38,083 nt of DNA. Source: Clostridiales bacterium DTU023. Lineage in GTDB: Bacteria; Bacillota; Clostridia; Saccharofermentanales; DTU023. The notes under the pieces were generated by a model. That model ran no database searches and was not told the DNA's origin. It saw only the letters and a list, made by a program, of their open reading frames with translations. Location: NCBI GenBank assembly GCA_001512945.1, contig LFTF01000127.1, positions 1 through 38,083 on the forward strand. The letters run 5' to 3'. A program made the translations under genes and the position numbers. Below are positions 1-38,083 of this stretch, in pieces (the stretch's first letter is position 1; each line of letters opens with the position of its first letter).

Positions 1-1293
1 ACGATTGGAAATTTCTTTATCGAGTTTATCCATGTTAACCACTCAATCGCCGATGCTGTCTCTATTGCTATAACCTCACCGGTAGGCACTGTCTTCGTCA
101 CAGGTGATTTCAAAATCGATTACACGCCGACAACGGTCGAACCGATGGATCTTGGGAAAATCGCGGAAATCGGTAACAAGGGCGTCCTCGCCTTACTCTC
201 TGATAGCACCAACGCTGAGCGCCCGGGTCATTCTCTTTCAGAGCGTGAAGTCGGTAAAGCGTTCAAAGAAATTTTTTCTGAGGCTACTGGACGTATTATC
301 GTCGCAATGTTCTCATCAAACATCTTCCGCCTGCAGCAAGTCATCTCAACAGCGGAAGCACACGGTCGCAAGGTGCTGATCCTGGGGCGGAGCTTGTTGA
401 ATGTGTTTGCGGCCTCAAATAGCCTCGGCTACCTCACCTACGATCCTTCAACGATCATCGACATCAAAAACATTGATAAATTCCCAACGCAAGAGATTGT
501 CATAATCGCGACAGGCAGCCAGGGCGAACCCATGTCGGCGCTCTCCCGGCTCGCATTCTCCGAACACCGGAGCACGGAGATCATGGAAGGCGACACCGTC
601 ATTCTCTCTTCCAGCATGATTCCCGGCAATCAAGAGGCGATCTACCGTGTCGTCAACGAACTGTTCATGAAAGGAGCTCAGGTAATCTATGAGTCGATTT
701 TGGATGTGCACGCGTCCGGCCATGCATGCCAGGATGAATTGAAGCAGATCATCACGCTCACACGACCCAATCATTTCATCCCCGCGCATGGCGAATTCCG
801 TATGCTCTACAGGCACGCAGAACTGGCAAGCCTGATGGGAATTCCGAATGACCGGATTACGCTACTCGCGAATGGCGATATTATTGAATTCACAGAAGAC
901 GGCGCGATGAATTTCGCCGGATATACCGAAGGGGCTGGTATCTTGATCGACGGATCAGGAATGGGCGATGTCGACGCGTTTGTGCTTCGCGACCGTCTCC
1001 AGCTTGCGGAGGATGGCATCGTCTCGGTCATGGTCCTGATCGATGCTCAGGCAAACAGGCTATACGGCGATCCCGTCATTCAGGCTCGCGGGTTTATCTT
1101 CGAAAGCGAGATGAACCACATCATTGATATCTGTCAAAATCGTGTCAAAGAAATAGCCGATGAACTCCAGAGCAAGAATAAGCCGCTCGACCGGGCAATG
1201 ACATCAAAAGACGTCAGCGATAAAATACAGAGAACTTTGTACGGATATTCGAAGAGGAGACCCTTTGTCATGGTCTCGGTGATGACTGTCTGA
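1..1293 (+). CDS. rnj: Ribonuclease J (5'-truncated at window edge)
   Basis: Frame 1 is open from base 1 (TIGNFFIEFIHVNHSIADAVSIAITSPVGTVFVTGDFKIDYTP...), continuing into ORF 145-1293. Metallo-beta-lactamase/beta-CASP motifs of RNase J: NHSIAD, VTGDFKID, SDSTNAERPG, IIATGSQGEPMSALSR, HASGHA, FIPAHGEFRML. Confidence 0.95.
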   Translation, partial: TIGNFFIEFIHVNHSIADAVSIAITSPVGTVFVTGDFKIDYTPTTVEPMDLGKIAEIGNKGVLALLSDSTNAERPGHSLSEREVGKAFKEIFSEATGRIIVAMFSSNIFRLQQVISTAEAHGRKVLILGRSLLNVFAASNSLGYLTYDPSTIIDIKNIDKFPTQEIVIIATGSQGEPMSALSRLAFSEHRSTEIMEGDTVILSSSMIPGNQEAIYRVVNELFMKGAQVIYESILDVHASGHACQDELKQIITLTRPNHFIPAHGEFRMLYRHAELASLMGIPNDRITLLANGDIIEFTEDGAMNFAGYTEGAGILIDGSGMGDVDAFVLRDRLQLAEDGIVSVMVLIDAQANRLYGDPVIQARGFIFESEMNHIIDICQNRVKEIADELQSKNKPLDRAMTSKDVSDKIQRTLYGYSKRRPFVMVSVMTV

Positions 1294-1295
1294 AA

Positions 1296-3644
1296 TCAGT
1301 TGTGACCCCTGGAAACGCTGACGACGCTGTCGACGGCTTTGATGCGTCCGACAAGACGGTCGTACTGCTCCTGATTTTCAATATCAACCGTCATTAACAG
1401 ATTGGCGCTGATATCGCGCGCCGATGACATGCGTGCCGACTGCACTGAGACATGTTCTTCTGCAATCGCCGCTGATATTTCAGCGAGCAGATTGGTGCGG
1501 TCACGTGCGATGACACGCAAATTAACGGGATATGTCCGGTGCGAACTGCCTGTCTCAGTCATCCAAAGAACGTCAATAAGCCGTGAAGCGCGTTCCGCGT
1601 CTTCCGGTGATCGGTCGAACGAATCAAGGATAGACCGAATGTTGGGACAGTCGATCCGGTGAACCGCGACTCCCATACCTCGTGTCACATAACCGATGAT
1701 TTCGTCGCCGGGAACGGGATTGCAACAACGTGATATTTTGACTAACGCATTTTCGAGTCCTTTAACCTTGACCGGAATGTCTGCTTGTTTTTTTGTCTTC
1801 TTCTTTGGCTTCTCAGGAACAGTTTTGTCGAGAATCAGCGCTTCGGTGACAAGCATATTGCTGGGATTGTGAATTACCTGACCTGTTTTAGAGACACGGT
1901 ACCCCCTTCGGACGCGTTCTTCTTCTGGCAGAGCAGTAATGTAAGCATCACGAAGCTTGGGGACGACGCGGCCCGCAGGAAGGCCGCCGTAACCAACTAC
2001 GGCAAGCAGATCATCCAGCGAATGAATCGAGTATTGTTTTAGGAGAGGAGTGACATACTCTTTCTTGAGAAGATCCGATGTCTGAAAGCCCAGTTTCTGA
2101 GACTCCCGATCTAACAGTTCACGCCCGCGAATGATATTCTCGTCACGGCGCTCACGTTTAAACCAAGATGAGATTTTATTGCGCGCAGAACTGCTCTTCA
2201 CGATATTGAGCCAGTCGCGAGACGGGCCGCGCACCTTATCTGACGTCAAAATCTCTACAATATCACCATTTTTCAACTCATATGTGAGTGACACCATGCG
2301 TCCGTTTACCTTGACACCGTACATTGAATTGCCGATATCGCTATGGATGTGATACGCAAAATCAACAGGCACGGCTCCGGTGGGCAATGCTACGACCTTG
2401 CCCATGGGAGTAAAAACAAACACTTCCTCCGGCAGTAGACCTTCTTTCAAAGCATCCATATAATCGCCGGCGTCACTCATGTCGCTCTGCCATTCAAGAA
2501 GCTGACGGAGCCATGAGAGGCGAACCTCAAAGACATCCTGTTTTTTGTCGCCGGCGCCTTCTTTGTAGCGCCAGTGCGCCGCAATACCGAACTCGGCCGT
2601 ACGGTGCATATCTTGTGTTCTAATCTGAACTTCAAACGGAATCCCACGATGTCCGATAACCGTCGAGTGCAGTGACTGATACCCGTTACTTTTCGGCATC
2701 GCGATATAATCACGAAACCTACCCGGAATGGGTTTATAGAGTTCATGGACAAGTCCAAGAATAGCGTAACACTCACTTACCGTCGGTACGATGATGCGTG
2801 TCGCGAATAAATCGTAAATTTCGTCGAGCTGTTTGACTTGCTCTTTCATCTTGCGATAGATGCTGTATAAATGTTTGGGCCTTCCTTCGAGATCTGCTTG
2901 AATGCCCATCTCCGCAATCTTTTCGGCCAGTTCAGCTTCAATCTCGTTCAAGTATTTTTCGCGGTCAGAACGGCGCTGTGACAGCATCCCTGCAAGTTCA
3001 TAGTAGGAGTCAGGATCCAAATAGCGGAGGCTCAAATCCTCCAATTCCCACTTGATGCGATGGATACCGAGTCTGGCGGCAAGAGGCGCATAAATATCGA
3101 TCGTCTCACGCGCAGTTGAAATCTGTTTTTCAGGTTCTTTGAATTTCATCGTGCGCATGTTATGCAACCGATCCGCCAGTTTGATCAGCACAACACGGAT
3201 ATCCTTAGCCATCGCGAGAAACATTTTGCGGAAATTTTGTGCCTGCATTTCTTCTTTCGAGGAATAGGAAATGCGTGACAGCTTGGTAACACCGTCAACA
3301 AGGTCGGCTACTTCCTGTCCGAGACGATCGCGGATATCTTCAAGCGTGGTATCCGTGTCTTCCACCGTATCATGCAGCAGTGCCGCCGCCAACGTGTATT
3401 CGTCAACAAGACCGAGCTCGAATAGAATACCCGTCGCGGCTACTGGATGGATAATATAAAGCTCGCCTGTCGCGCGAAGTTGTTTTTTGTGCGCCTCTTT
3501 GGCCATTTCGTAAGCGCTGATGATGAACGAAGCATCCTCCCGGTGAACTGCTTTTTTCCAAGCTTCAACAAGACGCTCCATTTCAGCATCTGTTTGAGCG
3601 ATCGTTTTCAGCTGATCATCGGTATAAGCAAACTCGTCCGTCAT
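1296..3644 (-). CDS. relA: Bifunctional (p)ppGpp synthetase/hydrolase, RelA/SpoT family
   Basis: 782 aa; HD hydrolase motif LLHDTVEDT, synthetase domain (PKSNGYQSLHSTVIG), TGS domain (VFVFTPMGKVVALPTGAVPVDFAYHIHS), C-terminal ACT. Confidence 0.95.
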   Translation of the reverse strand: MTDEFAYTDDQLKTIAQTDAEMERLVEAWKKAVHREDASFIISAYEMAKEAHKKQLRATGELYIIHPVAATGILFELGLVDEYTLAAALLHDTVEDTDTTLEDIRDRLGQEVADLVDGVTKLSRISYSSKEEMQAQNFRKMFLAMAKDIRVVLIKLADRLHNMRTMKFKEPEKQISTARETIDIYAPLAARLGIHRIKWELEDLSLRYLDPDSYYELAGMLSQRRSDREKYLNEIEAELAEKIAEMGIQADLEGRPKHLYSIYRKMKEQVKQLDEIYDLFATRIIVPTVSECYAILGLVHELYKPIPGRFRDYIAMPKSNGYQSLHSTVIGHRGIPFEVQIRTQDMHRTAEFGIAAHWRYKEGAGDKKQDVFEVRLSWLRQLLEWQSDMSDAGDYMDALKEGLLPEEVFVFTPMGKVVALPTGAVPVDFAYHIHSDIGNSMYGVKVNGRMVSLTYELKNGDIVEILTSDKVRGPSRDWLNIVKSSSARNKISSWFKRERRDENIIRGRELLDRESQKLGFQTSDLLKKEYVTPLLKQYSIHSLDDLLAVVGYGGLPAGRVVPKLRDAYITALPEEERVRRGYRVSKTGQVIHNPSNMLVTEALILDKTVPEKPKKKTKKQADIPVKVKGLENALVKISRCCNPVPGDEIIGYVTRGMGVAVHRIDCPNIRSILDSFDRSPEDAERASRLIDVLWMTETGSSHRTYPVNLRVIARDRTNLLAEISAAIAEEHVSVQSARMSSARDISANLLMTVDIENQEQYDRLVGRIKAVDSVVSVSRGHN

Positions 3645-5839
3645 ATTACAAGAACTCCCTGTGCAATCAGTTTAGCCCATAAAGGCGCCTCTGATAAAGC
3701 CGGTCTCTGTCCTTCAAAATCCAGAATCCTAAATGAAAAACTACCGTCTTCTTCAGCAATAAATTCCCCCAGGCCCGCTTGGCTGAAGACAGCAAGTGCA
3801 AGCAAAATTTCAAGGCCACCCGCCTCTACATTATAACGGTGCGACAAAACCCACGCCAAACGGACGGGCATAAAGCGAACTGGGAACTTGCCGGAACCGG
3901 AAAGTTCCTCCATAAGTTGCCATAAAGAGACAAAAAGAGCTTGTGACATCGCGGGAGATGGGTACTTTGAAGACATGGAGGGTGACTCTCCACGAGCTAC
4001 TCCGTTCCAGCTTTGCAAAGCCGAAACAGCCTGCTCATTGAGTTTTTCCTGCTCCGACGGCCGTATATCCTTAACTCTCAACTGAAGCTGGCGGCGGCCC
4101 CGCCAAGTATTGAATTCCGGTGTCGCCAGTACATCCACGATATCTCCGACGCTGTAAAATTCCTCGTCAGCACCACGGTGAAATAGTATGGCATCCACAA
4201 GGCGCATCGTTCGATCCGATGTTCTCAACTTAATCTTGAGATGTCGCCCGTTTCCAACACATGACAACATTTCAATCACCAGATTGGGAATCCACAGCAC
4301 GGGTCGTTCAAATCCGTTTCCTGACGGTTCAAGAATCTCAAATCGATCGAGAAGTTCTTCACTGAGTTCATTGCCTTCAAGCATCGCATCGGCCTGAAAA
4401 GGTATGACGCGCTCTCGTTCCGGTATTGCTTCGAGGTAGCTCTCCATCTCTTCGCAGAATGATTCTATGTTTTCCGCTCTGAGTGTGAGACCCGCAGCCC
4501 CCTTATGACCACCGAATCTCTCGAGCAGGTGCCCTGCTGAGGCGATCGCTTCAATGAGATTGATGCCGCCGAATGAGCGCGCTGATCCGGTATACATACC
4601 ATTTTCTTTGATGAGCGTAATGGCGGGCACACGGAGCCGATCTACGAGACGGGAACTAACAATGCCAAGTACGCCCGGATGCCATGTCTCGCCTTGCGCG
4701 ATGGCAATATAAAGCGGCTCATCGCCATGCTTTGCGAGAACTGAACGCAGCGCATCCTCAAAGACATCCTGCTCGACTAGACGGCGCTCACTATTTAATA
4801 CATCTAGCCCCTCTGCAAGGTGAGTCGCCCGGGCCGGATCATCTTCGAGCAGAAGATCAAGAGCGAGACGAACATCGCTCATCCTTCCGGCAGCATTCAA
4901 TCTTGGCGCGATTGAAAAAGCAACATCGCGCGCACGAACCGCCGTGCCTTTATCCGCGTCTGATTGGCGGTAAACTGCTTTCAAGCCCTCAGGCGCAGAG
5001 GTCGAGAAGACACGCAGCCCTTCTCGGACAATTGCCCGATTGGATCCTGTGAGTGGCATCACGTCCGCTACCGTTCCAATCGCTGACAACACAATCAAAG
5101 ACTCTCGGACGCTGGAGACCACTCCCCTACGTTTATCGAGCGCCAACGTCAGCATCAGCGCAACACCCGAACCCGATAGGTGCGCAAACGGAAAACTATC
5201 ATCCTCAAGCGCAGGATTGATGACCGGCGCCATCTCCCGATCAACTGGACCGGTTGCCTGATGGTGGTCCGTTACGATAACACCAATGCCTCGAGCTGTA
5301 AGCTCCGCGATTGAATCTGGTGAAGCGGTGCCTGTATCTACCGTGATCACAAGATCGGGGCGATGAAGCGCAATTTCGTCAACCAGCGACATGGACAGTC
5401 CGTAGCCATCGTCGAACCGGTCTGGTATTAAGAGGGCCGGTTTAAATCCGCGCTCCTCAAAATAACGCGATAACAGGGCGGTGGATGTAAGACCGTCGGC
5501 GTCATAATCACCGAAGATGAGCAAGCGCGGACTCTGCTTTTCGAGTGTGTGCTCAATTACATCGCACGCGCGCCCCATATCGATAAATAGAAATGGATCA
5601 GGCAGGTCATCAATTGACAAATTGAAAAAAGCATTTCGCTTTTCGAGTGTATCGAGCCCGCGAGCTTCAAGAATTCGTGACAGCGCATCAGTGCCCGGAT
5701 CTGTCGCTATCTTGTCATCCAACAGTTCCCAAGGTGCAGGTAAGAGCCAGCTCAACATCTCACGTCTTGCTTTGTCCTCTATCACGAATTCTTCCTCCGC
5801 ATTTTCTGTTCCATAGAAAAAAGGTCCGTTGCTCAACAA
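3641..5839 (-). CDS. recJ: Single-stranded-DNA-specific exonuclease RecJ
   Basis: 732 aa; DHH motifs FGDYDADGLTSTALL and VIVTDHHQATG, DHHA1 motif FGGHKGAAGLTL; 4-bp overlap with relA start. Confidence 0.93.
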   Translation of the reverse strand: MLSNGPFFYGTENAEEEFVIEDKARREMLSWLLPAPWELLDDKIATDPGTDALSRILEARGLDTLEKRNAFFNLSIDDLPDPFLFIDMGRACDVIEHTLEKQSPRLLIFGDYDADGLTSTALLSRYFEERGFKPALLIPDRFDDGYGLSMSLVDEIALHRPDLVITVDTGTASPDSIAELTARGIGVIVTDHHQATGPVDREMAPVINPALEDDSFPFAHLSGSGVALMLTLALDKRRGVVSSVRESLIVLSAIGTVADVMPLTGSNRAIVREGLRVFSTSAPEGLKAVYRQSDADKGTAVRARDVAFSIAPRLNAAGRMSDVRLALDLLLEDDPARATHLAEGLDVLNSERRLVEQDVFEDALRSVLAKHGDEPLYIAIAQGETWHPGVLGIVSSRLVDRLRVPAITLIKENGMYTGSARSFGGINLIEAIASAGHLLERFGGHKGAAGLTLRAENIESFCEEMESYLEAIPERERVIPFQADAMLEGNELSEELLDRFEILEPSGNGFERPVLWIPNLVIEMLSCVGNGRHLKIKLRTSDRTMRLVDAILFHRGADEEFYSVGDIVDVLATPEFNTWRGRRQLQLRVKDIRPSEQEKLNEQAVSALQSWNGVARGESPSMSSKYPSPAMSQALFVSLWQLMEELSGSGKFPVRFMPVRLAWVLSHRYNVEAGGLEILLALAVFSQAGLGEFIAEEDGSFSFRILDFEGQRPALSEAPLWAKLIAQGVLVI

Positions 5840-30840: not shown

Positions 30841-32205
30841 TTATCTCCTGCCTCTTGTACGGTTATTTTGCTTCTCGTGAAGCTTTTTCAACTTCATAAG
30901 CAAGATTATGGATCCAACAACGATGGCTGCAATGATTACCACCAGGCCTAACGCGGCAAGCGCCAGGATGACGGGGTCGGTCTGATTGAGCCCCCCTGCA
31001 AAAAACAAATCGTCTTCATTTTTATAAGGCTCTGACTCGAGAGAGCCCGGTTCGGTGACTACCGGGTCTCCGGGAGAAAGGGGTTGTGCGGGGTCGGCTT
31101 GGCCAGACGGTGTCACAGGGGCAAGCAGATCTCTGCCTTCTTTCACCGGAACGCCTTCCTGGCGTGCCGCCTCCTCTAAGATGGCACGAACAGGCAACGC
31201 CCTTGCAAGCCAAGGGTTCTCGCTCATTTCAATCGATGTTATGCCCATCGCCGCGCAAATAAAATGACGATCGTCAGTTGTGACGCCCGATCCGACTAGA
31301 CATTTTCCTGCCTGCGGTGTCGTGCCGGTTTTGACGCCTGTATACCGCTCATAATACTCTGACTGCATGAAGTCGGCTCCGTAGAGCACCAGCGCATTTG
31401 AGTTGCCCATCGTTCCCCACCACGAATTCTCATGCTCATCGGTCGTTGGCATGCGATAGTACCGCATCGAACATATATGAGCAATCAATGGGTTCTTCAA
31501 CGCTTCTGCCGCAATTAGGGCGAGATCATGCGTCGTGGTGTAATGACTCCCGTCCGCCTCATCAAAACCGGCAGGATTTGTGAAATGCGTTCCTGTCGCA
31601 CCCAATTCGACGGCTCGCTGATTCATCCGCCCCACAAAAAGTTCTTGAGAATTAGTCGCGTCATTGTATCCACCCGGATCAATGGCACCATACGAACCAC
31701 CATAGTTTTGAGCGATCACGCGCGCCACATCATTCGCTGAAGCGAGTAGCAACGCTGCCAGACCGTCAACCGTGCGTATCTGGTCGTCGGTCTTTAGCTC
31801 TTTGAGCCTCGCAGAGTTTGGGTCAAGAAAAACGAGCGATTCATCCGAGACGGTGAGCATACGTTCCGGGTCGAAGTTTTCGTCTTCAACAAGAATGAGA
31901 GCTGTCATAATCTTGGTCGTACTGGCATTGGCACGTTTTTTATCAGGATTTTGCGCAATTATGATTTTTTTTGTAACCGCATCAATTACACAATAGGAAT
32001 CCACATTAACTTCATCATAGGCGGGCCATCCAAGATGATCGACCGCGTGTACCTGCATACGATTGACGCCGCCTGTGAAGATTAGTGCCACAATCAACAC
32101 GGCCGTAGCAACAAAAAGGCGCCGGCGCGCTTTTAAATTGGCATTGTCTCTGCCTGCATAATCCCCTATATCATTGTTTCTTTTGTGTAGCTTGGTGTTC
32201 TTCAA
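30841..32205 (-). CDS. dacA: D-alanyl-D-alanine carboxypeptidase (class A PBP5-like)
   Basis: SxxK (ASTTKIM), SxN (LASANDVA), KTG (GVKTGTTPQAG); signal/TM N-terminus and C-terminal TM. TTG start at 32205 proposed: GGAG 7 nt upstream and TTGA overlap with the preceding stop. Confidence 0.88.
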   Translation of the reverse strand: MKNTKLHKRNNDIGDYAGRDNANLKARRRLFVATAVLIVALIFTGGVNRMQVHAVDHLGWPAYDEVNVDSYCVIDAVTKKIIIAQNPDKKRANASTTKIMTALILVEDENFDPERMLTVSDESLVFLDPNSARLKELKTDDQIRTVDGLAALLLASANDVARVIAQNYGGSYGAIDPGGYNDATNSQELFVGRMNQRAVELGATGTHFTNPAGFDEADGSHYTTTHDLALIAAEALKNPLIAHICSMRYYRMPTTDEHENSWWGTMGNSNALVLYGADFMQSEYYERYTGVKTGTTPQAGKCLVGSGVTTDDRHFICAAMGITSIEMSENPWLARALPVRAILEEAARQEGVPVKEGRDLLAPVTPSGQADPAQPLSPGDPVVTEPGSLESEPYKNEDDLFFAGGLNQTDPVILALAALGLVVIIAAIVVGSIILLMKLKKLHEKQNNRTRGRR

Positions 32206-33710
32206 TTTGCTTCTCCTATCTCCTGCTCGGGCATCTTCGGGCAAACACCGTTTAGCTGATTCATAACTGCTTCCTTGAGTGTGCCCGTCAAAACAGGAAT
32301 CGTATTGTCCTGCGCGTTATCAAAGGAACGTTCGAGTGAGGGCCAAATCTTTGCCCCCGATTCGACCGCAAGTAGTCGGATGACCTCGGGTCGCCCCGCC
32401 CCTGCCTCCTGAGCGTTTAGAAAAACGCGCCCGCACAGGTAATGGTCAAGCAGCGGAGAGCGAGCCAATATGAAACATGTGTTGGCATCTGTATTCTTCT
32501 TTGACCGCTGTTCCCAACAGGCAATAGCCTCTGCTGTCCCCCGATCAACAAGGTAGTCGGCCCGGTCGTACACAGACCGCATAACCCTCTGGCACCCCTT
32601 AAAATCGCAGCTTTCGAACACAAGCGAATGGTTCAACAGCTCAATCTCCGTATCGGATAAGCAAGTCTTCCCCGATCGTTCAATATCGTCCAGAACTTGC
32701 GTGAGGCGCGTCACATCGTGGCCAAAGACTTCAAAAAGCAATCGCTCCAGATTGACCGGCGAAGCGTCATCTTTATTGGCACGCTTTCCCTTCTTTGTCT
32801 CCTGCACATATCTGCCGGTACGTAAAAGATCTGTCATCGATGAAGATTCCCCTTCCCCTACGAAAACAGTTCCGACCGGCAACTGAAGGCTGCTCGCATA
32901 GACAAGACCGGCAAGAACATCAAGATGACCTCTAGAGACAACAAAATCAACGTCTCTGATATTATCTGTGTGCCGGGCGATGTCAGCGATAACTGCCGCC
33001 GCCATTGCCCCTGCCGTCAACACCCCAACCAAATGACCAGGTCCGACAAAAAGCGGTTCAAATCCGAGTCCGTTGAGTGTGTGCTCAAACGATGAATCGG
33101 CTGCCAGCTTCGTGAGTTCAAGATAACGTTCATCAAAAGATTCCGGATACGCACAAATGATTTCGTCTTGGCGAGCAAAACCGGCAAGCTCATATCGCCG
33201 GGACCCTCTGTCGGGAACGAACGTTAACTTCTGAATACCTGAGGCAAGACGTGAACTGGCCACGGCAAAGTCATCTGTATGGACGTTCAAGAGGATAGGC
33301 CGATATGATCGGTTCCGCTTGGCTAGTGCCCGAGGCAACAAAACATTCATGATCGCGGCGCTTATATCATCCAGACTGCCTGTCGGGAGATCGTCAGCGT
33401 TCAAAATGAAGTAGTCCGGAAAATAGGAGTTGAGCTGTGTAAATGGTAGTTCAAGCGATTCGGCATCCTCCTCGAGCATCCGGAACGCTTCTCCCAGAAT
33501 GGATCCCCATTCATCGAGCGAAAATTCCGGCAAATATCTTTGGAAAAACATCGCCATGACCTGTTGAGAGGAAAGAGAGGTCAATGTGGAAAGATCCAAG
33601 GGCTCCGGCAAAGATGCGGGGATAAACAGCCCGCCCGTCAGCGATAGTCCGCGGATAATGGCATCTATGCCGCTGACGGAGTCTCCTCCCCGAGTACTAA
33701 AATAATTCAT
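32202..33710 (-). CDS. Threonine synthase-like protein, probable catalytically inactive paralog
   Basis: N-terminal MNYFSTRGGDSVSGIDAIIRGLSLTGGLFIPASLP and C-terminal VNLERLLFEVFGHD are ThrC-like, but PLP-lysine and TSGDTG-type motifs are missing. Confidence 0.78.
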   Translation of the reverse strand: MNYFSTRGGDSVSGIDAIIRGLSLTGGLFIPASLPEPLDLSTLTSLSSQQVMAMFFQRYLPEFSLDEWGSILGEAFRMLEEDAESLELPFTQLNSYFPDYFILNADDLPTGSLDDISAAIMNVLLPRALAKRNRSYRPILLNVHTDDFAVASSRLASGIQKLTFVPDRGSRRYELAGFARQDEIICAYPESFDERYLELTKLAADSSFEHTLNGLGFEPLFVGPGHLVGVLTAGAMAAAVIADIARHTDNIRDVDFVVSRGHLDVLAGLVYASSLQLPVGTVFVGEGESSSMTDLLRTGRYVQETKKGKRANKDDASPVNLERLLFEVFGHDVTRLTQVLDDIERSGKTCLSDTEIELLNHSLVFESCDFKGCQRVMRSVYDRADYLVDRGTAEAIACWEQRSKKNTDANTCFILARSPLLDHYLCGRVFLNAQEAGAGRPEVIRLLAVESGAKIWPSLERSFDNAQDNTIPVLTGTLKEAVMNQLNGVCPKMPEQEIGEAN

Positions 33711-33778
33711 GAGCGATCAGCTCCTTAAACAAAATTGCAAATAGCTTTAGGCGTAACTCGCGCCTGCCGTCTTCTATA

Positions 33779-34612
33779 CTATTTTCCGTCTATTGGAGGA
33801 AATGTCTTGCGGTACATATCTAAAATTTCGGCCACCGATTCATTTTCAGATTCTCGTTCTTCCAGGATTTTTTCCATCCATTCGAGCCGCTCACGTCGCG
33901 CTTCATTCTTTAATATTATCGGCCTGATGGCGAAGTAGAAAATCAGGAAAAGAAGTGAAGCGGTGATGACCGCGAGTGTCAATCCTTGAATAAGTCGGAC
34001 AACATTCCCCTGGGTTCGTGATGTATCAGAAGTCTTGTTCTGAGCCATTCGATAGGCTTCTTCTTGCTCGCGCCTGCCTGCCATCTGGATCCGGCCTGTT
34101 CCATCTTCATCTGCTGCACGCTGCAAGATGCCACTTTTTGCCATACTCGCGCGCACAGGCATCAATACGTGTTCATTTCTTTTTTTAGAGCTGTCTCGAG
34201 CTTGCTCTCGGATCCGCTCCTCACGAGCTGCCATCCGGCATTTATCAACTGTGGTTGCGAGTGCTGAATCAGGCGATGCGAGTAAGACCTTATCAAACTG
34301 CTCTTCTGCTTCGCGGTACCGTCTCTCTTTGGCGAGCAGAACCCCATAGAGTGATGCTGCTTGTGAAAATTGCGGCCATCCCGAGGTTAGTTTCTCGAGC
34401 GCAATCATCGCCACATCATTGTGCCCCGTGCCAGCCTGTTCCAACGCACGGTTATACACAGCCAAGATACGTTCTCGCTCACCTTCGGACACAGGCAACT
34501 CTTCAGGCAGCTCTTTGAGAGCCTTGTACGTTTCAAGTACACGGTCCCAGTTGAGCGTCTCCGCTTTGTTCCTGGCCGGAAGCGCTGATCGATTGGTCTG
34601 ATTATGTCGCAA
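33779..34612 (-). CDS. TPR-like repeat protein with single C-terminal TM helix
   Basis: ASLYGVLLAKERRYREAEEQFDKVLLASPDSALA (TPR-like); TM LTLAVITASLLFLIFYFAI. Confidence 0.65.
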   Translation of the reverse strand: MRHNQTNRSALPARNKAETLNWDRVLETYKALKELPEELPVSEGERERILAVYNRALEQAGTGHNDVAMIALEKLTSGWPQFSQAASLYGVLLAKERRYREAEEQFDKVLLASPDSALATTVDKCRMAAREERIREQARDSSKKRNEHVLMPVRASMAKSGILQRAADEDGTGRIQMAGRREQEEAYRMAQNKTSDTSRTQGNVVRLIQGLTLAVITASLLFLIFYFAIRPIILKNEARRERLEWMEKILEERESENESVAEILDMYRKTFPPIDGK

Positions 34613-34761: not shown

Positions 34762-36642
34762 CTAACCGCTTGACTTATCTAGCTTCCACTTGCGAACGAA
34801 AGGCCTAACTACACCTGCAAGGTAAAGTGAGCCGCACACACAAATCATTGCGCCGTTCTTTTCGGCCAGGTTCAACGCATGCATAATCGCTTCATCAGTG
34901 TCACGTTCCGGTATCACCGGAGTCGACTGACCGTCGTCCCTTATCACACCCTCCGCCTCAGAGGCAAGGTCCACTGCCGAAAGGCGACGCTCGCCCGGCG
35001 GCTCTGTGCAAACAACCGCCGAAATATCGTAAGGTGCCGACTCAAGCAATGCTTCAAGCATACCGCGATGGTCCTTGTCTTTAAATAAACCGATCACGAA
35101 TATGACACTCTGACCGTCCGTGAGTCGCCCGAGCGCTTCCCTGAGTCCCAGACAACCCTGTACATTATGTGCGCCGTCGAGAAGGATCAAAGGCTCTCGT
35201 GACAGGACTTCCATCCGAGCAGGCCAGATGCAGGCCGCAATGCCACGATCTATCGCTTGTTCGTCGGCCATCTCTGTCATTCCTGTCGCAGCCGCTGCCA
35301 TGAGGGCATAGATCGGCTGGTAAGGGCCGAGCAGTTTGGTCTTGTAAATTTTGTCGGTTGACAGAGCCTTAAACGACTGGCCCACCCATCCGTAATCAAG
35401 GGTGACAAAGTCATCGTATCCGTAGTAATGAAGCGGTGACGAAAGTTCCGCGCATCGCGCATCGAGCACCTGCCGGGCAATCCGAGCATCGGCTTCAGAG
35501 AGAAGCGCATCCTCCGGCGCATAGGCAATCACGGGACAGCCCTGCTTGATAATGCCTGCCTTCTCGCCCATGATCTCCCGCATTGTATTCCCCAGCCGAT
35601 CCATGTGATCAAAGCCGGGAGCGCCAATCAAGCATGCCAGCGGCTTCTCCAAAATATTGGTCGAATCGAGACGACCACCGAGGCCCGTTTCGAGAACAAC
35701 TACATCGCAGCCTTGCTCCTTGAACCAGAGAAATGCGAGTGCCGTCATCAAGTCGAATTGGGTTGGCTCTTCACCTCCGCGTGACGCAATCGCTTGGGCG
35801 GCTTCTTCGACGCGTTTCATCAAACGTACGACATCATCATCGGGAATCTCTCCCGTCGCCTGATCCACGTCATATCGTGCGAGATCGGCTGCACCGTCAA
35901 GCACACGGATTCTCTCATTGAAACGCTCGAGATATGGCGAGGTATACCAACCTGTTTTGTGACCGGCCTCGCATAAAATATGCGTCAAATAGCTGCTGAT
36001 CGACCCTTTTCCATTAGTTCCCGCAATGTGAAAAGCCGGATACGATCGCCATGGGTCACCTAACAGTCGATAGAGCTCGACCACACGTCCACAGCTGTCA
36101 CCTGTTCCAAACGCATCGGCCTCCGAGATTGTGTGCAGTGCCTGGTCAAGACTGGCCGACGTATTCGCCGCTTCAGAGGGATTCTCTGCAACAGCAGATG
36201 ATGCACCATTGTTTTTAAAAACATAAAATTTCCCTACAATGCGATTCCCAAGTACAACAAATGTAAGTGCAACCAATTTAGCGAGATCAAGCATATCGGG
36301 GATAATTACCGTTGTATTCTGCAATACATGCCTGAAAAAATAGATGCCCGCGTACTCAAATACAAAGGATATTGCCAGCCTCGTCCCCACGAAACGGAAA
36401 AATTCTTCCTTTACGTCCGATGTTGAGCGGAAGACCCAGATCCGATTGAGCACATAAGCCGCCAGTACCGAAAGGATAATGGCAGGTACGTCGGAATAGT
36501 ACCATTTTTCAAGCCCCAACCAACGGTTCATTAACATGTAGACCACCAGATTGACAACAGTGGCGACTACACCGGAAACAAAATAGCGTAGGAATTCCTT
36601 TGTAAAAAAAAGATCGATCAGATAATATTTTGCTTTTCTCAT
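34762..36642 (-). CDS. folC: Fusion protein: N-terminal GtrA-like membrane domain + C-terminal folylpolyglutamate/dihydrofolate synthase
   Basis: aa 1-~145 GtrA-like (FLRYFVSGVVATVVNLVVYMLMNRW, YVLNRIWVFRS, LGNRIVGKFYVFK); then FolC motifs FHIAGTNGKGSISSYL, SPYLERFNERI, LETGLGGRLDSTN, ILLDGAHNVQG. Confidence 0.88.
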   Translation of the reverse strand: MRKAKYYLIDLFFTKEFLRYFVSGVVATVVNLVVYMLMNRWLGLEKWYYSDVPAIILSVLAAYVLNRIWVFRSTSDVKEEFFRFVGTRLAISFVFEYAGIYFFRHVLQNTTVIIPDMLDLAKLVALTFVVLGNRIVGKFYVFKNNGASSAVAENPSEAANTSASLDQALHTISEADAFGTGDSCGRVVELYRLLGDPWRSYPAFHIAGTNGKGSISSYLTHILCEAGHKTGWYTSPYLERFNERIRVLDGAADLARYDVDQATGEIPDDDVVRLMKRVEEAAQAIASRGGEEPTQFDLMTALAFLWFKEQGCDVVVLETGLGGRLDSTNILEKPLACLIGAPGFDHMDRLGNTMREIMGEKAGIIKQGCPVIAYAPEDALLSEADARIARQVLDARCAELSSPLHYYGYDDFVTLDYGWVGQSFKALSTDKIYKTKLLGPYQPIYALMAAAATGMTEMADEQAIDRGIAACIWPARMEVLSREPLILLDGAHNVQGCLGLREALGRLTDGQSVIFVIGLFKDKDHRGMLEALLESAPYDISAVVCTEPPGERRLSAVDLASEAEGVIRDDGQSTPVIPERDTDEAIMHALNLAEKNGAMICVCGSLYLAGVVRPFVRKWKLDKSSG

Positions 36643-38083
36643 AGTTCGTCTCGGTCAGACGGATCATCACGTCCGGCTCTTCTTTGTCTGAACTGCCGTA
36701 TGCCCGACTCATCGGGACGCGATTCATGAACAGCGTCTTTGTCTTCATGTTTTCGGAGAGTCTCGTCGAGTGAACGCCATCCGCTTTCAAGGTCCTCCGT
36801 TCCCTCGTCAGAATCTACCGGCCGATCATCGTCTTCCCGTTTCGCGACCGCAATCCCACCTGTGACACCTGTCATCAGCTCTGGTGTTTGGGTGCTTGAC
36901 TCCTCCGAGAGATCCACAATGCTAGAGCCCTCTTGAGTTGATTGAGACTGCGTTTTCCGTTCTTCATCCATGGGTTCTTCTTGAAGATCATAATCTTCGT
37001 CATGAAAATCGGCAAGCGTCAACTCGGGTTCGTGCTTGATGACACGCCGTATACGGGCAACCAACCAAACACCCGAAGCGATCACAATAATGAGAACCGC
37101 GATTGCGGCGACCAGAACACTTATCGGGATACGGCGACCAAAGAGTGTGACCGTGTTCTCTGCGACTAAAGTTTCCGTAACTGCAGGCTGCTCTGTTTTC
37201 TCAGATTCTGTCATCGCCGGTTCTGTCGGTTCTGTAGGCACGGGCGGTATGTCTTCTAGGCCCAACTCCAGATAACTCCCCGCGACGGGGACAAGCCAGA
37301 GATCAGCCCGGATAAGCGAATCGAGCTCATGATCATACAGGTACATCATTTTATCTTCGGCATCATTCATCCTGAGCGCGACAAGATAAAGATCACCAGG
37401 AACGGCAACGGAAACTCCCTGCCAAAGATCGTCCCTGGCAGGTTCGTCTAACGAATCATCACCTTCGTAGGTTTTCCAGTCGGGCAAGGTCATACCGGGT
37501 GTAACTTTCGAGCGGAGTTCCTCGTAAGCGGACTTGGTAAAGTAATAACCTTTGACCGGCCGGTAGGCTGGAACGTCGTTGCCGCGCACTGACAGAGTCG
37601 TCAGTTCAAATCCGTCCGGCACGGCTTGCTCCGACAAGACGGCAAAGGTGAAATAGCGCGATGACCACTCCGACCGATAAAAAGGAACAAAAACGCCTGC
37701 CTGGGCGTCGGCATAGTAGAAACGTGCCGGCAGGGTCTCATCGGACAGCCAGTAGAGCGTATAGGGCAATGTATTCGACTCATAGCCGGTCAACTGTTTG
37801 CCCTCCCATTCGACCTCCTTGGGTCGGAATGATTCCGGAATCGCGCCATCGGATGGGCTCGTCTCAGGAATGGACAGCATGACCCCGTCATATCGTTTCC
37901 CAATCGATGCCTGTGCCGGAAAAGTCGGTCGCGTCTCTGACGGAATCGTGCTCACGGTAGAGACAGAAGAGGTGGGCTTGGTGGTGGTTGCTTTGGTTGT
38001 TGTTTTCGCGGTTGTTGGTTGGGCGGTTGTGGTGGTTGTTACAGGCGGGTCCGTAAGGGTAAGGTTCAAAACGGCGCCTGTCG
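36639..38083 (-). CDS. Thr-rich, single-TM surface protein (5'-truncated at window edge)
   Basis: Frame stays open to the window end (TGAVLNLTLTDPPVTTTTTAQPTTAKTTTKATTTKPTSS...); TM ISVLVAAIAVLIIVIASGVWLVARI; acidic cytoplasmic tail. The listed start at 38069 is a TTG and probably not the true start. Confidence 0.75.
   Translation of the reverse strand, partial: TGAVLNLTLTDPPVTTTTTAQPTTAKTTTKATTTKPTSSVSTVSTIPSETRPTFPAQASIGKRYDGVMLSIPETSPSDGAIPESFRPKEVEWEGKQLTGYESNTLPYTLYWLSDETLPARFYYADAQAGVFVPFYRSEWSSRYFTFAVLSEQAVPDGFELTTLSVRGNDVPAYRPVKGYYFTKSAYEELRSKVTPGMTLPDWKTYEGDDSLDEPARDDLWQGVSVAVPGDLYLVALRMNDAEDKMMYLYDHELDSLIRADLWLVPVAGSYLELGLEDIPPVPTEPTEPAMTESEKTEQPAVTETLVAENTVTLFGRRIPISVLVAAIAVLIIVIASGVWLVARIRRVIKHEPELTLADFHDEDYDLQEEPMDEERKTQSQSTQEGSSIVDLSEESSTQTPELMTGVTGGIAVAKREDDDRPVDSDEGTEDLESGWRSLDETLRKHEDKDAVHESRPDESGIRQFRQRRAGRDDPSDRDEL
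37965..38045 (-). repeat. Low-complexity Thr/Lys/Pro-rich linker-coding repeat
   Basis: TTTTTAQPTTAKTTTKATTTKPTSSVST encoded by (ACC/ACA/ACT)-rich DNA. Confidence 0.8.

Follow-up and report, generated by a model that had tools for sequence, protein, structure and literature searches.

Class II threonine synthase (ThrC; EC 4.2.3.1), represented by the enzymes of E. coli, yeast and Streptococcus pneumoniae (PDB 8g1y, 1kl7, 1vb3), is the closest described system to the protein analyzed here. In fold type II PLP enzymes, motifs of the ATSGDTG type form the substrate-carboxylate ("asparagine") loop, and TGNFGN is, judging by the alignment and the known fold, the PLP phosphate loop of ThrC. The two loops are distinct in such enzymes, e.g., in serine racemase, where the phosphate is bound by a glycine-rich loop other than the one that holds the substrate carboxylate (PMC6333871). 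Metabolic pseudoenzymes are known as a kind. In trypanosomatids, a dead paralog of deoxyhypusine synthase regulates the active enzyme (PMC3663545), and PDX1.2 is another dead paralog with a regulatory role of this sort (cited in PMC6522883); in these, the catalytic residues are likewise lost, the fold and selection are kept, and the dead protein coexists with an active paralog as its partner. Few metabolic pseudoenzymes are traceable in place, and a case with living intermediates in a single genomic slot appears to be undescribed in the literature searched. When open-access full texts were searched for any earlier account of an inactive threonine synthase, nothing relevant emerged, which is not proof of absence.

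The ThrC-like gene of the window (the whole 38,083-nucleotide stretch of DNA that was analyzed; Table 1) belongs to such a case. We consider it likely that the vertically inherited class II ThrC of this bacterial family, located in the ancestral GtrA-FolC-TPR-ThrC slot, has become a pseudoenzyme that does without PLP and probably binds a ligand or a protein partner.

Table 1. Features of the ThrC-like gene, its former active site and its neighbors in the window
Feature	Coordinates	Strand	Basis or remark
ThrC-like pseudoenzyme gene	32202..33710	-	502 aa + stop
RBS (AAGGAG) and ATG start of the ThrC-like gene	33698..33725	-	sequence; RBS 7-8 nt upstream
TTGA overlap, ThrC-like stop/TTG start of the D,D-carboxypeptidase gene	32202..32205	-	sequence
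D-alanyl-D-alanine carboxypeptidase (DacF)	30841..32205	-	PF00768
TPR protein	33779..34612	-	adjoins ThrC through most of the order
GtrA-FolC fusion ORF	34762..36642	-	GtrA-FolC is the ancestral upstream neighbor
Asp114 codon, position of the PLP-binding lysine	33369..33371	-	alignments
Asp106 codon	33393..33395	-	acidic in almost every slot ortholog of this family; W/F/Y in ThrC
VHTDDFA, remnant of the substrate-carboxylate loop ATSGDTG	33264..33284	-	D147 in all g1 orthologs
SRGHLDV, remnant of the PLP phosphate loop P-T-G-N-F-G-N	32916..32936	-	alignment
GEGESSSM, remnant of the A-S-N-x-N segment	32835..32858	-	G285, E286 invariant in g1
ARSPLLD, remnant of T-A-S-P-x-K-F	32445..32465	-	R417, D422 invariant in g1

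The ORF is intact, as the first-pass annotation had stated, with an ATG codon, a ribosome-binding site and 0 internal stops. The ThrC scaffold that had been recognized along its length is borne out by several searches: in phmmer, the S. pneumoniae enzyme (8g1y) matches residues 3-415 (E=1.4e-19), and in Pfam the N-terminal domain Thr_synth_N (PF14821) is detected (E=5e-7). Judging by these matches, the window protein is homologous to ThrC far above the chance level. Of the two models proposed for checking, only PF14821 recognizes it; none of the NCBIfam models, TIGR00260 included, matches the protein up to E=10, PF00291 (PALP) does not match it in Pfam, and a TIGR00260 search of the same genome hits other loci but not this one, which does not reach the curated cut-off. 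The AlphaFold2 model of the window protein (pLDDT 89, pTM 0.91) superimposes on 8g1y with a TM score of 0.85, and a model built exclusively from nine lysine-less sequences still reaches 0.80 (pLDDT 82), scores to be read as a prediction rather than a structure given that AlphaFold2 may recall known folds. The complete ThrC fold is thus predicted to be kept, in a protein that has lost the catalytic residues, i.e., a pseudoenzyme.

The difference from class II threonine synthase lies in the cofactor site, which lacks the PLP lysine, both loops (SGDTG for the substrate, TGNFGN for the phosphate) and the N-x-N segment. Our alignments agree with the reported replacement of the lysine by Asp114; this column holds K in ThrC and A, S, N, S, A, Y, Y, Y in the eight orthologs from the genus of the window (g1). 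The pairing of VHTDDFA with ATSGDTG also stands (SGDTG aligns with TDDFA, residues 145-149), except that the range given for it, 33264-33281, was one codon short, and so does the change of the N-x-N segment to ESSS, given that GEGESSSM aligns with A-S-N-x-N. The motif ATSGDTG had, however, been called the phosphate-binding loop, whereas it corresponds to the substrate-carboxylate loop; the phosphate loop is P-T-G-N-F-G-N, which reads S-R-G-H-L-D-V in the window, so this element is lost too. A PLP lysine located elsewhere, named in the first-pass annotation as a finding that would refute its reading, is ruled out by the nine-sequence g1 alignment: no column contains an invariant lysine, which indicates that the lysine of the cofactor site has not shifted to another position. 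The best lysine column, K371, is occupied in seven of the nine sequences and is distant in sequence from the former cofactor site.

The history of the locus was traced across the order, in Clostridia-type metagenome-assembled genomes (relatives include Clostridiaceae bacterium, Bacillota bacterium and Mageeibacillus sp. UBA5438); the family of the window (f1) comprises genera g1-g7, and f2-f4 denote other families. Six f1 genera share the gene order GtrA-FolC-TPR-ThrC-like, mostly followed by DacF, RplM and RpsI. In f2, f3 and f4, a single canonical ThrC with intact HGPTxAFKD, SGDTG and TGNFGN motifs follows GtrA-FolC-TPR, i.e., occupies the same slot (the f4 genome L104 is an exception, without a recognized TPR gene between FolC and ThrC), and even the flanking genes PrfC and SecD/F are common to g5 and f3. 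The window gene, initially taken for a paralog, is accordingly best regarded as the ThrC that was inherited with the ancestral FolC-TPR-ThrC locus and modified where it stood, rather than as an extra copy. The lysine-less slot orthologs come from 21 species in four genera (nine in g1, seven in g2, three in g4 and two in g7). In g5 and g6, the slot orthologs (L012, L020, L023, L024, L032, L045) share the locus and the acidic residue 106 with the window protein but differ from it in retaining the lysine and a plausible PLP site with altered loops (SGNTG or TGNAG, and PAGNFGN in g5); these may still be PLP enzymes, with an altered specificity. In three g1 species, the slot gene is cleanly missing between TPR and DacF, and in genome G010 it is absent at a contig end. 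In g3, the slot contains an asparagine-synthase-like gene (L094:6491-8365, L095:5094-6968, L097:6506-8344, L098:4082-5911); the starts of these proteins (MSDFIG/MSDYIG/MSDYFG/MADYFG) lack the usual Cys2 of the glutaminase site, and SGGVDS is retained in three of the four.

Position 106, occupied by W, F or Y in canonical ThrC, is acidic in nearly all f1 slot orthologs, with or without the lysine, one exception being the g2 copy L128, which has C in the aligned stretch. The presence of this residue in the lysine-bearing orthologs suggests that the functional change probably started before the loss of the lysine. Change in the slot copy would have set in with the f1 ancestor, where D/E replaced W/F at 106 and the loops were modified, at a time when other ThrC genes took over threonine synthesis or the cell could do without it. 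Loss of the PLP lysine and of the two cofactor loops would have followed, in g1 on the one hand and in g2/g4/g7 on the other. In a marker-protein tree, g1 does not group with g2/g4/g7, which suggests two independent lysine losses, although a single loss is not rejected (AU p=0.08); the deep order of the protein tree itself is unreliable because of long branches. A single locus within one order thus presents the canonical enzyme, intermediates that keep the lysine, several forms without it, outright deletions and one replacement, so that the route from enzyme to non-enzyme is directly testable with purified proteins.

Purifying selection maintains the lysine-less protein across species, as the first-pass annotation had inferred. 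dN/dS is low among lysine-less pairs (0.12-0.21 by NG86, 0.16-0.28 by YN00), values that may miss a recent relaxation in the lineage of the window, where the nearest relative is 44% identical and synonymous sites are saturated. The ORFs of the g1 orthologs, which are 38-44% identical, are uninterrupted by stops or frameshifts, so the neutral decay that would have spoken against a maintained protein is not seen. The gene is nevertheless dispensable, being absent in the three g1 species and replaced in g3, and it is the fastest-evolving member of the cluster in g1; in most pairs for which all three genes were compared, its dN/dS exceeds the values for TPR and DacF. These facts are what would be expected if a redundant ThrC were decaying slowly toward loss under weakened selection, the residual constraint being due to translational coupling with DacF or to avoidance of toxic misfolding. 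We regard such decay as unlikely given the intact ORFs across all four lysine-less genera, the low dN/dS, and the pattern of conservation in the old active site. Among 113 positions that are near-invariant in canonical ThrC (n=22), g1 retains 26, and yet conservation within g1 is higher at these 113 sites than at the other positions (0.66 vs. 0.55, p=3e-4); residues that are (almost) never found in canonical ThrC are invariant in g1, among them D106, R171, E174, F221, G268, G285, E286, R417 and D422. A new invariant set at old-site positions favors reuse of the pocket over plain decay, although these residues could instead reflect core packing or a folding need rather than binding. Taken with the predicted ThrC fold, the new charged set in the former site makes it most likely that the g1 protein works without chemistry; it would be a regulator that binds a small molecule, a partner or both and is made together with the neighboring TPR protein. 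It may, as the first-pass annotation suggested, be a ligand sensor or a scaffold.

The genome of the window, which is 86% complete, was checked by family searches and encodes a TIGR00260 protein with the lysine (contig C70) as well as the first 105 residues of a canonical class II ThrC at the end of contig C88. The latter ORF (L050, G000:C88, 5519-5917) is cut by the contig end just before the PLP lysine, and nearby ORFs (1272-3899) resemble Tn7-type transposition genes. The remaining ThrC genes of f1 are located in lysC-hom-thrC-thrB operons, as read from motifs, or belong to the shorter TIGR00260 type. No ThrC above the TIGR00260 cut-off was found in the g4 and g7 carriers, and searches for homoserine dehydrogenase gave no match in g4 and g7, in three more genomes of g1 or in the genome of the window, while they were positive in every control as well as in G018, G020 and G038. 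The pseudoenzyme carriers of g4 and g7 (G016, G022, G028, G019, G025) are therefore probable threonine auxotrophs, and a role of the pseudoenzyme in threonine synthesis is unlikely.

The same distribution bears on the idea that the protein is a regulatory partner of an active ThrC or of another enzyme of the threonine pathway. Many carriers do possess an active-type ThrC, and the principle is established by the trypanosomatid deoxyhypusine synthase (PMC3663545). The pseudoenzyme persists, however, where threonine synthesis seems to be missing, so that, unlike in deoxyhypusine synthase and PDX1.2, some carriers appear to have no active enzyme with which to pair. Class II ThrC is, moreover, usually monomeric, and altogether we find a partnership of this kind quite improbable. 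For genome-based metabolic models, neither a ThrC-like gene nor a Thr_synth_N match is a proof of threonine synthesis.

Still less probable, in our view, is that the protein is a PLP-free enzyme with a new chemistry, based on the acidic cluster D106/D115/D147/E286 and, e.g., a metal ion. Invariant charged residues do occupy the former PLP site in g1, where D147 (of SGDTG) and D115 (next to the lysine position) are conserved throughout, and D115 is one of only four columns that are invariant in all 36 aligned sequences, canonical and degenerate, catalytic or not. Apart from D115 and the acidic residue 106, however, the new residues are not common to g2, g4 and g7, which argues against one new active site shared by all the lysine-less proteins. 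An artefact of sequencing, assembly or alignment, including a misplaced PLP lysine, can be practically dismissed: no evidence in its support was found, and nine independent g1 assemblies agree with those of three other genera, a comparison that argues strongly against it. Going beyond the preferred reading of an inherited ThrC turned into a binding protein, we tentatively suggest that the lysine-less proteins might form a new subfamily, in which a fold type II PLP enzyme was converted within its ancestral operon, at least twice in one family, to a protein that has no cofactor, binds a ligand or a partner and is linked to a membrane TPR protein, lysine-bearing intermediates being still extant.

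The coupling to the D,D-carboxypeptidase gene noted in the first-pass annotation is real, in that the stop codon of the ThrC-like gene overlaps the DacF start (TTGA or ATGA) in the window and in some orthologs, and DacF is inferred to be translationally coupled through TTGA. The envelope-related role read from this arrangement does not follow. In other families, DacF is not located next to canonical ThrC, in g5 and g6 the two are separated by intervening genes, and deletion of the ThrC-like gene has left DacF in its position; the coupling is therefore recent and is no pointer to the envelope. A mirror-tree search for a partner singled out no gene, and promoter and terminator scans of the window yielded barely more than shuffled sequence. 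Read by eye, a hydrophobic stretch near the C-terminus of the TPR protein is probably transmembrane. Upstream of GtrA-FolC, in the window (36639-38069, minus strand) and in much of the family, a Thr-rich membrane-anchored protein without a Pfam match is encoded. GtrA and FolC themselves are fused in a single 626-aa ORF in the window and in two other loci (L033 and L036) and are separate ORFs in most relatives.
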